Shown here piece by piece: positions 1,451 to 40,214 of a stretch of DNA of 64,000 nt. The notes beneath the pieces were generated by a model. It was not told the DNA's origin and made no database searches. It saw only the letters and a program-made list of their open reading frames with translations. The position numbers and the translations under genes were made by a program. The stretch is from Gammaproteobacteria bacterium (GTDB lineage: Bacteria; Pseudomonadota; Gammaproteobacteria; SZUA-152): the NCBI GenBank assembly GCA_032250735.1, contig JAVVEP010000006.1, forward strand, positions 62,001 to 126,000, read 5' to 3'. The first letter of the stretch is position 1. Each line of letters opens with the position of its first letter.

Positions 1451-2083
1451 GTGAGCAAAATGCTATGCCGGCGGATAGGGCCGGGATTGCTGGCGGGAAT
1501 CTTGGTGTTAACGGGCTGCGCCACCCCTCCCCGGGTGCCCCCCGCCGAGCTGGATCGGCTGTGGCAGCAGCACCGCCAGACCCTGCAGCACAAGGACGAC
1601 TGGGCGCTGACGGCGCGCATTGCCGGCTCCACCGAAGAGGATGGCTGGAGTGGCAAGCTGTCCTGGCAACAGAGCGGCGAAAACTACCAGATCCATTTCC
1701 AGGCCCCCTTCGGGCAGGGCGCTGCGCAGTTGCTGGGTGGCCCTGAACGGGTGGAGATGCGCACCTCGGACGAGCAGGTGATCATCGCCGAGGATGCCGA
1801 GTCGCTGCTGTATCAGCAGTTGGGTTGGCGCTTGCCCCTAAAGGGGCTGCGCTACTGGGTGCTGGGCCTGCCGATGCCGGACACGCAGTCGACCGATGAT
1901 GAGCCACTGCTGGTACTGGACCAGGCCGGCCATCTCTCCCGTCTGCAGCAATCCCACTGGCAGGTGAAGTACGAGGCCTATCGTCGGGTCGGCGAGGTCG
2001 ATCTGCCGCAAAAGATCTATCTGCAAAATCACGCCCTGAATCTGCGTCTGGTGATCGATCACTGGCGGCTCAACGGACAGTGA
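1451..2083 (+). CDS. lolB: Outer-membrane lipoprotein insertion protein LolB
   Basis: This 210-residue lipoprotein starts with GTG one base after the preceding TPR gene. It has a short basic N-terminus, a hydrophobic stretch and a lipobox ending V-L-T-G-C at about residue 23, so it should be lipidated and held in the outer membrane. LolB takes lipoproteins from periplasmic LolA and inserts them into the outer-membrane inner leaflet. Family features include the W-x-L-T-A-R-I-A strand, the W-S-G-K-L-S-W segment and the W-L-P-L-K-G-L-R-Y-W-V-L-G-L-P motif. Position before ispE is the conserved gammaproteobacterial order. Its TGA stop coincides with the left target repeat of a family A element. 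Confidence 0.95.
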   Translation: MSKMLCRRIGPGLLAGILVLTGCATPPRVPPAELDRLWQQHRQTLQHKDDWALTARIAGSTEEDGWSGKLSWQQSGENYQIHFQAPFGQGAAQLLGGPERVEMRTSDEQVIIAEDAESLLYQQLGWRLPLKGLRYWVLGLPMPDTQSTDDEPLLVLDQAGHLSRLQQSHWQVKYEAYRRVGEVDLPQKIYLQNHALNLRLVIDHWRLNGQ

Positions 2084-2334
2084 GAGCCTGTGAAAAAATC
2101 GCCGGCCTACTGCGGGCGCCGCTTTGATGCAGGCCATCCCTGGCCTGCACCCTGCGGGCTACTGTCGCAGTCCCGTTTCGTTCCTGACGAAACGGTGCGG
2201 CTGCAACCGCGTTGCGCTACGTGAAAACGGCGGTCATATGGTCCACCAAACTCCCTTGTTTTCGCGTAGCGCGCCTTGTTTCGCTCGCAAATCGATGCCC
2301 TCGCTACGGCCGTCGAATTTTTCACAGGCTCTGA
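2081..2334. mobile_element. Family A palindromic MITE-like element, copy 1 (248 bp plus TGA repeats)
   Basis: The element proper is 2084-2331 and is bounded by inverted ends GAGCCTGTGAAAAA and TTTTTCACAGGCTC. Direct TGA trinucleotides flank it at 2081-2083 (the lolB stop) and 2332-2334. The interior holds nested palindromes: a TGCAGGCCA/TGGCCTGCA hairpin, a CCGTTTCGT/ACGAAACGG hairpin and a long CGCTACG-GAAAAC/GTTTTC-CGTAGCG stem. The same sequence recurs at 8746-8928 (shortened) and, inverted, at 39961-40214. No transposase is encoded, so it would be a non-autonomous element. A 3-bp T-N-A duplication is known for the IS1031 group of the IS5 family; assignment to that group is inference. Confidence 0.85.
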
Positions 2335-8745: not shown

Positions 8746-8928
8746 TGAGAGCCTGTGAAAAAATCGTCGACCTACTGCGGACGTCGCTTTTCGGCTGCAA
8801 CGGTGTTGCGCTACGTGAAAACGGCGGTCATTTGGTTCACCAAACTTCCTTGTTTTCACGTAGCGCGCCTTGTTTCGCTCGAAAATCGACGCCCTCGCTA
8901 CGGCCGTCGATTTTTTCACAGGCTCTGA
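8746..8928. mobile_element. Family A palindromic element, copy 2 (177 bp, internally deleted)
   Basis: The ends GAGCCTGTGAAAAA and TTTTTCACAGGCTC are at 8749-8762 and 8912-8925, with TGA direct repeats at 8746-8748 and 8926-8928. Compared with copies 1 and 3 it lacks 71 internal bases, which in those copies hold two short hairpins. Its long inner stem is perfect (CGCTACGTGAAAAC/GTTTTCACGTAGCG). The heptad AGTGCTG occurs just outside both ends. Confidence 0.85.
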
Positions 8929-35460: not shown

Positions 35461-35483
35461 GTCGCTGATTTTTTCACGGGCTC
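35461..35483. mobile_element. Solitary family A end abutting the algR stop
   Basis: Read on the minus strand, algR ends in TGA followed at once by GAGCCCGTGAAAAAATCAGC, one mismatch from the family A left end within the 14-bp core. The rest of the element is absent. Confidence 0.65.
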
Positions 35484-36227
35484 TCAGACCTTGCCCATTT
35501 CCTTCAGGCGCCGGCGTGTCGCGGCGACCATGCGGCGACTGACCTCGATCCGGTTATCGATGCTGCGAAAGCAGATGTGATAGCGGCCGTCACTGTCTTT
35601 TTCCAGGCCATCGATGTAGTTGACGGCCACCAGCGAGTTGCGGTGGACCCGCAAAAAGCGCTCACCGTACTCATCCTCCAGTGATTTCAGTGAATCATCG
35701 ATCAGCAGCTGTCCCTCGGTGTGGTGTGCGGTGACATATTTCTGCTCGGCCTGGAAATAGAAGATATTCTCCGAGGGCACCAGCTGTAAATTGCCGCCCA
35801 TGTAGGCGCTGATATGGCTGCGAGACTGGCTGACCGCTTCCTGCTTGCCCAGCTCCAGCAGCTGGGCGCGGTTGATTTTTTGCGCCTTCTTGAGCGCCTC
35901 TTCCAGGCGTTCGCGGCGAATAGGTTTGAGCAGGTAGTCCACGGCGTTGGCCTCGAAGGCGGCCAGGGCGTGTTCGCTGAAGGCGGTGGTGAAGATCACC
36001 GCCGGCGGATGGCGCAGTTGTGACAGGTGCAGCGCGGTTTCCAGTCCGCTCATCTCCGGCATGCGAATGTCCAGCAGCACAACATCGGGGTGCAGGACGC
36101 TGGAGCGCAGCAGCGCCTCCTTGCCGCTTTTGGCCTCGCCCACGATGTCGGCATGCAGCACATCCTGCAACAGCCGGTTCATGCGCGCGCGGGCCAGGGG
36201 TTCATCATCCACAATAAGTATTTTCAT
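35484..36227 (-). CDS. algR: LytTR-type response regulator AlgR
   Basis: The 247-residue protein has a receiver domain (acidic V-D-D-E at 6-9, phospho-acceptor L-L-D-I-R-M-P with Asp53, and a K-P-I motif near residue 103). A C-terminal LytTR DNA-binding domain starts at about residue 140 (F-Y-F-Q-A-E-Q-K-Y-V-T, then F-L-R-V-H-R-N-S-L-V-A). It overlaps the upstream kinase gene by ATGA. In Pseudomonas the pair controls alginate, twitching and virulence; targets here are unknown. The stop abuts a decayed family A end. Confidence 0.93.
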   Translation of the reverse strand: MKILIVDDEPLARARMNRLLQDVLHADIVGEAKSGKEALLRSSVLHPDVVLLDIRMPEMSGLETALHLSQLRHPPAVIFTTAFSEHALAAFEANAVDYLLKPIRRERLEEALKKAQKINRAQLLELGKQEAVSQSRSHISAYMGGNLQLVPSENIFYFQAEQKYVTAHHTEGQLLIDDSLKSLEDEYGERFLRVHRNSLVAVNYIDGLEKDSDGRYHICFRSIDNRIEVSRRMVAATRRRLKEMGKV

Positions 36228-37553: not shown

Positions 37554-38945
37554 ATGAGCGATACCGTTGAAAAACCCTGGGGCGGGCGTTTCACCGAACC
37601 CACGGATGCCTTTGTGGAGGCCTTTACCGCCTCTGTGGGTTTTGACCAGCGCCTGTATGCGCACGATATCGCCGGTTCCATCGCCCACGCCAGCATGCTG
37701 GCGAAAGTGGGGGTGCTCACCGCGGCTGAACGCGATGCCATTCATGCGGGGCTGGAGACGATTCGCGGCGAGATCGAACGCGGTGAATTTCAGTGGTCGA
37801 TCAGCCGTGAAGACGTGCACATGAATATCGAGGCGCGGCTGATCGAAAACATCGGCGAGGTCGGTAAAAAGCTGCACACCGGGCGCTCCCGCAACGATCA
37901 GGTGGCGACCGATATCCGCCTCTATCTGCGCGACGAGATCGGCACCATCATCGCCGAGCTGCGGCGCCTGCAAACCGCCCTGGTGGACCTGGCCGAGCAG
38001 GAGGCCGATACCATCATGCCCGGCTTTACCCATCTGCAAACCGCCCAGCCGGTGACCTTTGGCCACCACCTGCTGGCCTGGTTTGAAAACCTCAAACGCG
38101 ATCATGGCCGGCTCAGCGACTGCGCCGGGCGCGTCAACGTGATGCCCCTGGGCGCCGCGGCCCTGGCGGGCACCTCCTATCCCATCGATCGCCACTACAC
38201 GGCCGAGTTGCTGGGATTTGACGCCCCCGCGGAAAACTCGCTGGATGCGGTCAGTGACCGGGATTTCGCCATCGAATTTGTTGCCGCCGCCGCGCTGACC
38301 ATGGTGCACCTCTCCCGCTTCTCCGAGGAATTGATCCTGTGGGCCTCGGCGCAGTTTGCCTTTATCGAGCTGGGCGACAGCTTCTGCACCGGCTCATCCA
38401 TCATGCCGCAGAAGAAGAATCCGGATGTGCCCGAGCTGATCCGGGGCAAGGCCGGGCGTGTTACCGGCAATCTCATGAGCCTGCTGATGTTGATGAAGGG
38501 CCAGCCGCTGGCCTACAACAAGGACAACCAGGAGGACAAGGAACCCCTGTTCGACACGGTGGACAACCTGCGCGCCAGCCTGCGGGTGTTTGCCGACATG
38601 ATCCCCGCGATCAGTCCCAGACGCGACAATATGCGCGAGGCGGCGCGGCGGGGGTTCTCCACCGCCACCGATCTGGCCGACTATCTGGTGCGCCAGGGGG
38701 TGGCGTTCCGTGATGCCCACGAGGTGGTGGGCAAGGCCGTGCGCCTGGGGGTAGAGACGGGGCGCGACCTGTCGGAGATGGCGCTGGAGGAATTGCAGGG
38801 CTTTTCCGCCCATATCCAGGCCGACGTGTTTGAGGTGCTGACCCTGGAAGGTTCGGTCGCCGCGCGCGACCATCTGGGCGGGACCGCGCCGGCACAGGTG
38901 CGCGCCGCGGTGCAGCGTGCGCGTGCGTGGCTGGCGGCAGACTGA
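37554..38945 (+). CDS. argH: Argininosuccinate lyase
   Basis: This is the last enzyme of arginine synthesis, splitting argininosuccinate into arginine and fumarate. The 463-residue protein has W-G-G-R-F near the start, [17 protein letters not shown] and the superfamily signature [12 protein letters not shown] near residue 281. The stop TGA is followed by a decayed family A end, and the next gene begins within the last codons. Confidence 0.97.
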
Positions 38946-39955
38946 GGGCCTGCGGAAAAACCGCCGGCCTGCTGTGGCCGGCAGTTTGCGTCGTCCTATT
39001 CCCCACGTTCCCCGCGCCCCTCGCGGCGCAGCCGCTCAGCCCGTTTTTCAGTTTCAACCAGAGCCCCATCATCCAGATCCACGGCCTGCCGGCGATCGAT
39101 AACGCCCGCGTGCTGGACGAGGCACAGGCGCGTTATCGCCTGGTGCACGATCTGGCCAACAACTACACCTTCCGGCAAACGGCCGATGAGGCGCTGCTGT
39201 TCGACGGCGAGACCAGCCGCACCACCTTTGTCTATGCGCGCGGCATCGGCGGGGGTTGGGAGTGGGGTATGCAGATCCCCTATGTGCGCCATGCCGGCGG
39301 CTCGCTGGACGCCTTCATCGAGGACTGGCACGACACCTTTTTCCTGCCCCAGGGGGGGCGCGATACCGCCCCCCGCAATCGACTCACCTATTCCTATCAG
39401 CGCAACGGCGTGACCGAGCTGCTGCTGAACGAGCCGGTGTCGGGCATCGGGGATCTGCGCCTGACCCTGGGCAGGCAGTGGTCGCCGCCGGGGGCCCCCA
39501 CCCGCGTGGCGCTGCGCGGTGCCCTGAGCCTGCCCAGCGGCGACAGCGCCGAGCTGCGCGGCAGCGGGGCGGTGGATGCCGCGCTGTGGGCCAGCGCCGA
39601 CCGGGCACGGTCGTGGTGGGGCCTCGCCGGCAGCCTGTATGGCGGTGGTGGCCTGTTATGGATGGGTGACGGCGAGGTGCTGGCCGACCAGCAGCGTCGC
39701 CTCGCGGCCTTTGGCAGCCTGGGCGCGGGCGCGCGGCTGCGGCCGTGGCTGGCGCTGAAGCTACAGCTCGACCTGCACAGCCCGCTGTATGACCACAGCG
39801 GACTGGTGCAGGTCAACGCCGCCGCCGTGCAGCTGCTCATGGGCGGTGAGCTCCAGCTGGGCCGCAACACCCGGCTGGAACTGATGGTGGGCGAAGACCC
39901 CACCGTGCACGCCTCGCCGGATGTGGTGTTTCACCTGGGGCTGGTGGTGGAATAA
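38927..39955 (+). CDS. DUF3187 family putative outer-membrane protein
   Basis: The 342-residue product starts at a GTG overlapping argH by 19 bp. The signal peptide spans about residues 1-36 (basic, then [12 protein letters not shown], ending A-P-L-A-A-Q-P). The mature part has [10 protein letters not shown] and alternating strands typical of a beta-barrel, ending in L-V-V-E. DUF3187 has no known function; an outer-membrane location is inferred. The first 20 or so codons lie in sequence resembling the left end of a family A element. Confidence 0.8.
38946..38990. mobile_element. Decayed family A left end inside the DUF3187 gene
   Basis: Directly after the argH TGA, GGGCCTGCGGAAAAA aligns with GAGCCTGTGAAAAAA of copy 1. 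The next 25 bases (CGCCGGCCTGCTG and on) also align with few changes, mostly A-to-G and T-to-C. Here the sequence encodes part of a signal peptide. Confidence 0.55.
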
Positions 39956-39960
39956 TCGCC

Positions 39961-40214
39961 TCAGAGCCTGTGAAAAATTCGACGGCCGTAGCGAGGGCGT
40001 CGATTTGCGAGCGAAACAAGGCGCGCTACGCGAAAACAAGGGAGTTTGGTGGACCAAATAACCGCCGTTTTCGCGTAGCGCAACGCCGTTGCAGCCGCAC
40101 CGTTTCGTCAGGAACGAAACGGGACTGCGTCAGTAGCCCGCAGGGTGCAGGCCAAGGATGGCCTGCATCAAAGCGGCGTCCGCAGTAGGCTGGCGATTTT
40201 TTCACAGGCTCTCA
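39961..40214. mobile_element. Family A palindromic element, copy 3 (248 bp, inverted)
   Basis: The element proper is 39964-40211, inverted relative to copy 1 and exactly the same length. Direct repeats TCA (TGA on the element's strand) lie at 39961-39963 and 40212-40214. Its long inner stem is CGCTACGCGAAAAC with a perfect complement, differing from copy 2 at a compensated base pair. Confidence 0.85.

Follow-up and report, generated by a model that had tools for sequence, protein, structure and literature searches.

Short inverted-repeat elements with a C|TSA|G target and a 3-bp duplication lie behind TGA stop codons in a gammaproteobacterial genome

The window analysed here is a 64-kb stretch (C6:62001-126000) of a gammaproteobacterial genome assembly of 3.43 Mb in 61 contigs. 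It carries three complete copies of one short element, the first between lolB and ispE, all with the perfect inverted ends GAGCCTGTGAAAAA (Table 1). Each was found where the original prediction had placed it, its ends inverted and TGA repeated directly on the element strand, and the left TGA of the first copy is indeed the stop codon of the lolB reading frame. The inverted arms of copy 1 (2083-2107 and 2308-2332) match at 92%, and copy 2 is without an internal stretch that copies 1 and 3 contain. Fragments had also been noted behind other TGA stops: the stop of an algR-type gene (Response_reg and LytTR domains) is followed at once by a truncated copy, GAGCCCGTGAAAAA, and then by non-element DNA, and the argH stop is followed directly on its 3' side by a decayed 54-mer, GGGCCTGCGGAAAAACCGCCGGCCTGCTGTGGCCGGCAG, whereas no fragment was found after ackA in a search allowing up to 3 mismatches. 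The window holds 7 matches to the element end (<=2 mismatches) against 0.34 expected in shuffled sequences, none of 100 shuffles reaching 7; Rfam identified two tRNAs in the window and nothing else.

Table 1. Element copies and their target-site copies in the 64-kb window. Lengths are measured between the tips of the terminal inverted repeats (TIRs).
Feature	Position	Strand	Remarks
Left target-site copy TGA, stop codon of lolB	2081..2083	+	Pfam LolB match of the ORF
Element copy 1, 248 bp	2084..2331	+	Terminal inverted repeats 2084-2097 / 2318-2331
Right target-site copy TGA, then GCG-ATG of ispE (GHMP kinase)	2332..2334	+	
Left target-site copy TGA of copy 2, intergenic	8746..8748	+	Upstream without long open frame
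Element copy 2, 177 bp	8749..8925	+	Internal-deletion form
Right target-site copy TGA of copy 2	8926..8928	+	
Truncated copy directly after TGA stop (35484-35486, -) of algR-type gene	35466..35483	-	
Decayed short copy directly after argH TGA stop (38943-38945)	38946..38990	+	
Target-site copy of copy 3	39961..39963	-	TCA on +, TGA on element strand
Element copy 3, 248 bp	39964..40211	-	96% identity to copy 1
Second target-site copy of copy 3	40212..40214	-	TCA on +, TGA on element strand

Across the whole source genome, element ends were found 73 times at <=1 mismatch (reversed control pattern: 0). The 28 complete copies range from 42 to 248 bp and fall into size classes nested within one another, near 248, 177 and 54 bp: the full 248 bp is found twice, about ten copies measure 177-189 bp, a single one 143 bp and the remainder 42-56 bp. 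Ten of them begin exactly after the TGA of a predicted gene and the others are intergenic; the host genes confirmed by Pfam are LolB, RpiA, SecF, DarP/YjgA, YcgR and DUF494. Pfam also confirmed the UreD gene ahead of a truncated copy (C25:13859), of which about 18 bp remain between the UreD stop and the first codon of the following urease gene. Genome-wide tabulation of the flanks agreed with what had been seen in the window, as identical TSA trinucleotides (TGA/TGA or TCA/TCA) border 22 of the 28 copies. In the other six the flanks are unequal: five have one flank that is not TSA (AGA, CGA, TTA, or CCA on the forward strand), and the sixth site, on contig C4, has unlike flanks. At that site (C4:98780-99018), a DUF494 (Smg-like) gene ends in TGA, and behind this stop a 16-bp unit built on the element end, GAGCCTGTAATAAAGA, is repeated in tandem; the array includes some bases N and runs into a 51-bp copy.

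A class-wide genome sample revealed clear families of related elements in two MAGs of another family (f29), Chromatiales bacterium USCg_Taylor (G051) and G196, in which the elements obey the same insertion rule at high copy number; Gammaproteobacteria bacterium SJ809 (G142) contained the left ends of an IS, besides other related ends. Ends at <=3 mismatches numbered 207 in G051, 188 in G196 and 145 in G142, against 14, 20 and 12 for the control. Complete copies in G196 and G051 are flanked C-TSA...TSA-G, with matched flanks in 19 of 35 copies in G196 (C at -4 in 29, G at +4 in 30) and in 8 of 15 in G051; the loci were picked by a pattern containing TSA at one end, which biases the TSA frequency, but neither the outer C and G nor the match within a copy entered into this selection. 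Matches in three further genomes (G012, G022 and G052) were due to chance or lay in coding sequence, and BLAST searches of plasmids and phages with the 248-bp element gave no match.

The target sites conform to the consensus C|TSA|G, read as TGA or TCA depending on the strand. Where both flanks are TSA, the central base is the same in 49 copies and different in 5 (three genomes pooled, p=4e-10). A TSA belonging to the element, or fixed as a motif on both sides, would have a central base that was constant or varied independently left and right, which this ratio contradicts; because the central base matches within copies, the flanking TSA is a genuine 3-bp target duplication. The presumed empty sites in relatives of the same genus hold a single stop codon at lolB-ispE and at secF, not two TGA copies. 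In three relatives (G008, G006 and G002) the lolB-ispE junction is empty and reads TGA-NNN-ATG, with one stop, and in the source genome it reads TGA-[248 bp]-TGA-GCG-ATG, the spacing outside the element being that of the empty relatives (other relatives have a TAA or TAG stop here). Without the element, secF ends in one TGA in G005, G007, G002 and G004, and rpiA in relatives has a TAG stop. As the relatives compared belong to other species of the genus, these sites represent the likely prior state and not a strain polymorphism. The proposal that the elements target and duplicate TGA stands as regards a 3-bp duplication at TGA, but the target is C|TSA|G and not stop codons as such: TGA is the only stop codon that fits it.

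The RNA folds formed directly after stop codons are very stable (54-mer: -47.5 kcal/mol, z -13.7; 248-mer: -129.6, z -9.4), as would be expected of conserved terminator-like or mRNA-stabilising hairpins that never moved and were placed 3' of genes by their function. This explanation is hardly credible in view of the single-stop empty sites and the target duplications, of the intergenic copies away from gene ends, of the missing T-run after the stem, and of the exact element end being absent from all 11 same-genus genomes.

The 54-bp copies are near-perfect hairpins (palindromes) at independent sites, and the elements, like REPs, are abundant near gene 3' ends. REP or IS200/IS605-like elements moved by a Y1 (HUH) transposase could account for this and for the strong orientation bias described below; the left TGA would then be the target and the right TGA the element's own, with no duplication, and the source genome does contain six Y1_Tnp genes. 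We nevertheless regard it as very improbable, because the central base of the flank varies among copies and matches within them, because the inverted repeats reach the very tip, and because one element in one orientation occurs as both TCA..TCA and TGA..TGA copies and not beside a fixed one-sided motif without duplication. When the six Y1 loci were read, none of the genes was flanked by these ends as cognate repeats. Some of these RAYT-like genes are flanked by other short repeats, e.g., GACCTGACCCTGATCTC and TTAAGGGGTCAGAGC. REP/RAYT systems resemble the present elements in being small palindromes by gene 3' ends, oriented relative to a short motif, but here TSA is doubled on both sides and varies among copies.

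With terminal inverted repeats at both tips, multiple copies (28 of 42-248 bp in the source genome) too short for a transposase gene, and a target-site duplication seen both within copies and against empty sites, the elements are a real and widespread group of MITEs that insert at C|TSA|G and duplicate 3 bp. A 3-bp TNA duplication and inverted ends at the tips are known for the IS1031 group of the IS5 family, and the present elements, candidate members of it, share both. The closest documented target is that of NuwaII, a eukaryotic relative of IS5 in the PHIS superfamily, which inserts at C|TNA|G, a target whose outer C and G are conserved and whose 3 bp TNA are duplicated (PMC4482050); it differs in its eukaryotic hosts and known transposase, whereas the elements described here are bacterial and their central base is nearly always G/C. 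Bacterial MITEs such as RUP and Correia/NEMIS (reviewed in PMC2229807) and QMITEs (PMC5896051) are likewise short and non-coding, with inverted ends, target duplication, many copies and presumed mobilisation in trans, but RUP and most of the others listed use TA. In the IS1182 family, ISPse1 makes a 4-bp duplication (PMC3281130) and IS1272 replaces inverted repeats (PMC5678879), unlike the 3-bp duplication here; the one likeness is that a partial IS1182-type transposase N-terminus adjoins a similar but distinct end, GAGGCTGTGTAAAAACG, on contig C99 of USCg_Taylor. The MITE literature that we searched gives no account of systematic insertion at TGA stops with the stop duplicated.

A full IS with the same ends had been suggested as the source of the transposase; none is assembled in the source genome, and SJ809 and USCg_Taylor yielded 25 left ends of probable partner ISs (3 and 22, respectively) that are nearly identical to the element ends. 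They read GAG(C/G)CTGTGAAAAAATTG...GATCGCCAA...ATATGCGATCTT...ATG, and the reading frame that follows starts MNKEPSLFPGLPEPEAGVA in SJ809 or MSKEPSLFPD in USCg_Taylor. All are preceded by TCA, and 24 of the 25 by CTCA; the CTSA target is thereby linked with a transposon that encodes a protein and has almost the same ends. In both organisms insertion is strand-specific, TCA always standing before GAG(C/G)CTGTGAAAAAATTG. Every left end sits at a contig end, as expected of a collapsed repeat. Only 19 residues of the protein are readable, and neither the body nor the right end could be recovered from these two assemblies. A search of genome contigs returned 25 loci, 24 of them from USCg_Taylor and SJ809 and all of these at contig ends; a Spartobacteria locus proved to be a chance match within a WD40-like repeat gene. 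BLAST searches of plasmids with the 123-bp left end and with the short N-terminus did not recover the IS body, nor did searches of viral contigs. The source genome has one decayed IS5-type DDE copy (PF01609/DUF772), which has no such ends at <=2 mismatches, and the IS1182 model NF033551 gave nothing above its cut-off in 10 genomes. From the 3-bp TNA duplication, we infer that the mobiliser is a DDE transposase of the IS5/PIF-Harbinger type.

Of the TGA-flanked ends in the three genomes pooled, 41 of 75 fall exactly on a gene stop (8/23, 22/37 and 11/15). In the unoccupied non-coding background, 9% of TSA and 29% of CTSAG sites lie on stops (Fisher p=6e-22 and 4e-4), and none of the 75 insertions is in coding sequence, though about three quarters of CTSAG sites are coding. 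These pooled counts were made with one uniform purpose-made gene caller, and the copies counted are akin by descent within families, yet at different sites. The excess over CTSAG is modest (odds ratio about 3, p=4e-4) and not significant in the source genome alone (p=0.09). This excess would be accounted for, on top of the target motif and selection, if a transposase or host factor actively favoured gene 3' ends, which would add to the best explanation and not replace it. Such targeting seems unlikely to us, given the insignificance in the source genome, the purpose-made gene models, and the fact that selection also removes insertions from promoters and other regulatory intergenic DNA, which enlarges the fraction at stops without any targeting. 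The excess may reflect selection in promoters, and target motif and selection may explain it without active targeting, so that stop-codon occupancy is probably passive. That the stop is left intact, as originally proposed, was confirmed at lolB, where the upstream TGA remains the stop and the second lies beyond the element; stop regeneration is a sound and common consequence of target and duplication.

On the element strand of the source genome, TGA outnumbers TCA by 23 to 4 (p=3e-4; 18:4 with matched flanks only), and the partner ISs are oriented 25:0, always with TCA at the left end, whereas orientation in G196 and G051 is mixed, the two leaning opposite ways. The bias counts against a model with a simple symmetric TSA cut, which does not predict it; we can only guess that the transposase reads the central base differently at its left and right ends. 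TIR position 4 was set aside as a cause, informative pairs being too few. A strict orientation rule is contradicted by the mixed G196 and G051, and it is doubtful, indeed rather unlikely, that the system reads C|TGA|G in one strand orientation, with a TGA stop favoured and cost-free and the TGA strand setting the orientation of the element; if true, such a target would make stop codons cost-free landing sites. The 54-bp copies are, moreover, unusually short for paired-end DDE synapsis.

Taken together, we consider it probable, at roughly 85%, that the elements are a new MITE family moved by an IS5/PIF-Harbinger-type DDE transposase, with passive occupancy of stop codons. As non-autonomous MITEs with inverted ends GAG(N)(C/T)TGTGAAAAA, they would be moved by a transposase supplied in trans, which would make cuts 3 nt apart on the two strands of C|TSA|G; repair of the gaps would double the TGA or TCA. 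Where the TGA is a stop, the upstream copy would stay in frame as the stop, the second copy would lie past the element and the protein would be the same; intragenic insertions would be lost, and those at stop codons and intergenic CTSAG sites would persist. The partner IS expected from this scheme would encode a DDE transposase, end on the right in GAG..CTGTGAAAAA and have TCA on both sides. A selfish element whose target and duplication length amount to one stop codon could fill a compact genome with little harm, as a gene hit at its last codon would still give an identical protein, and the system lends itself to testing to what extent target specificity, beyond selection, makes small elements tolerable. 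A very stable hairpin straight after stops could also influence transcript ends.

The inner module of the G196/G051 element (GGAACCGGAG..ATACNTGAGGATTCCGAGC) also occurs at five places in Aeromonas caviae (NZ_AP026896.1), and at the locus that was read (1501-1549 of the extracted stretch) it is flanked by different ends; the module seems to be common to different repeat families. At two loci, elements or ISs lying side by side share one TGA/TCA (CTCTGAGAG), the flank of one being the target of the next.
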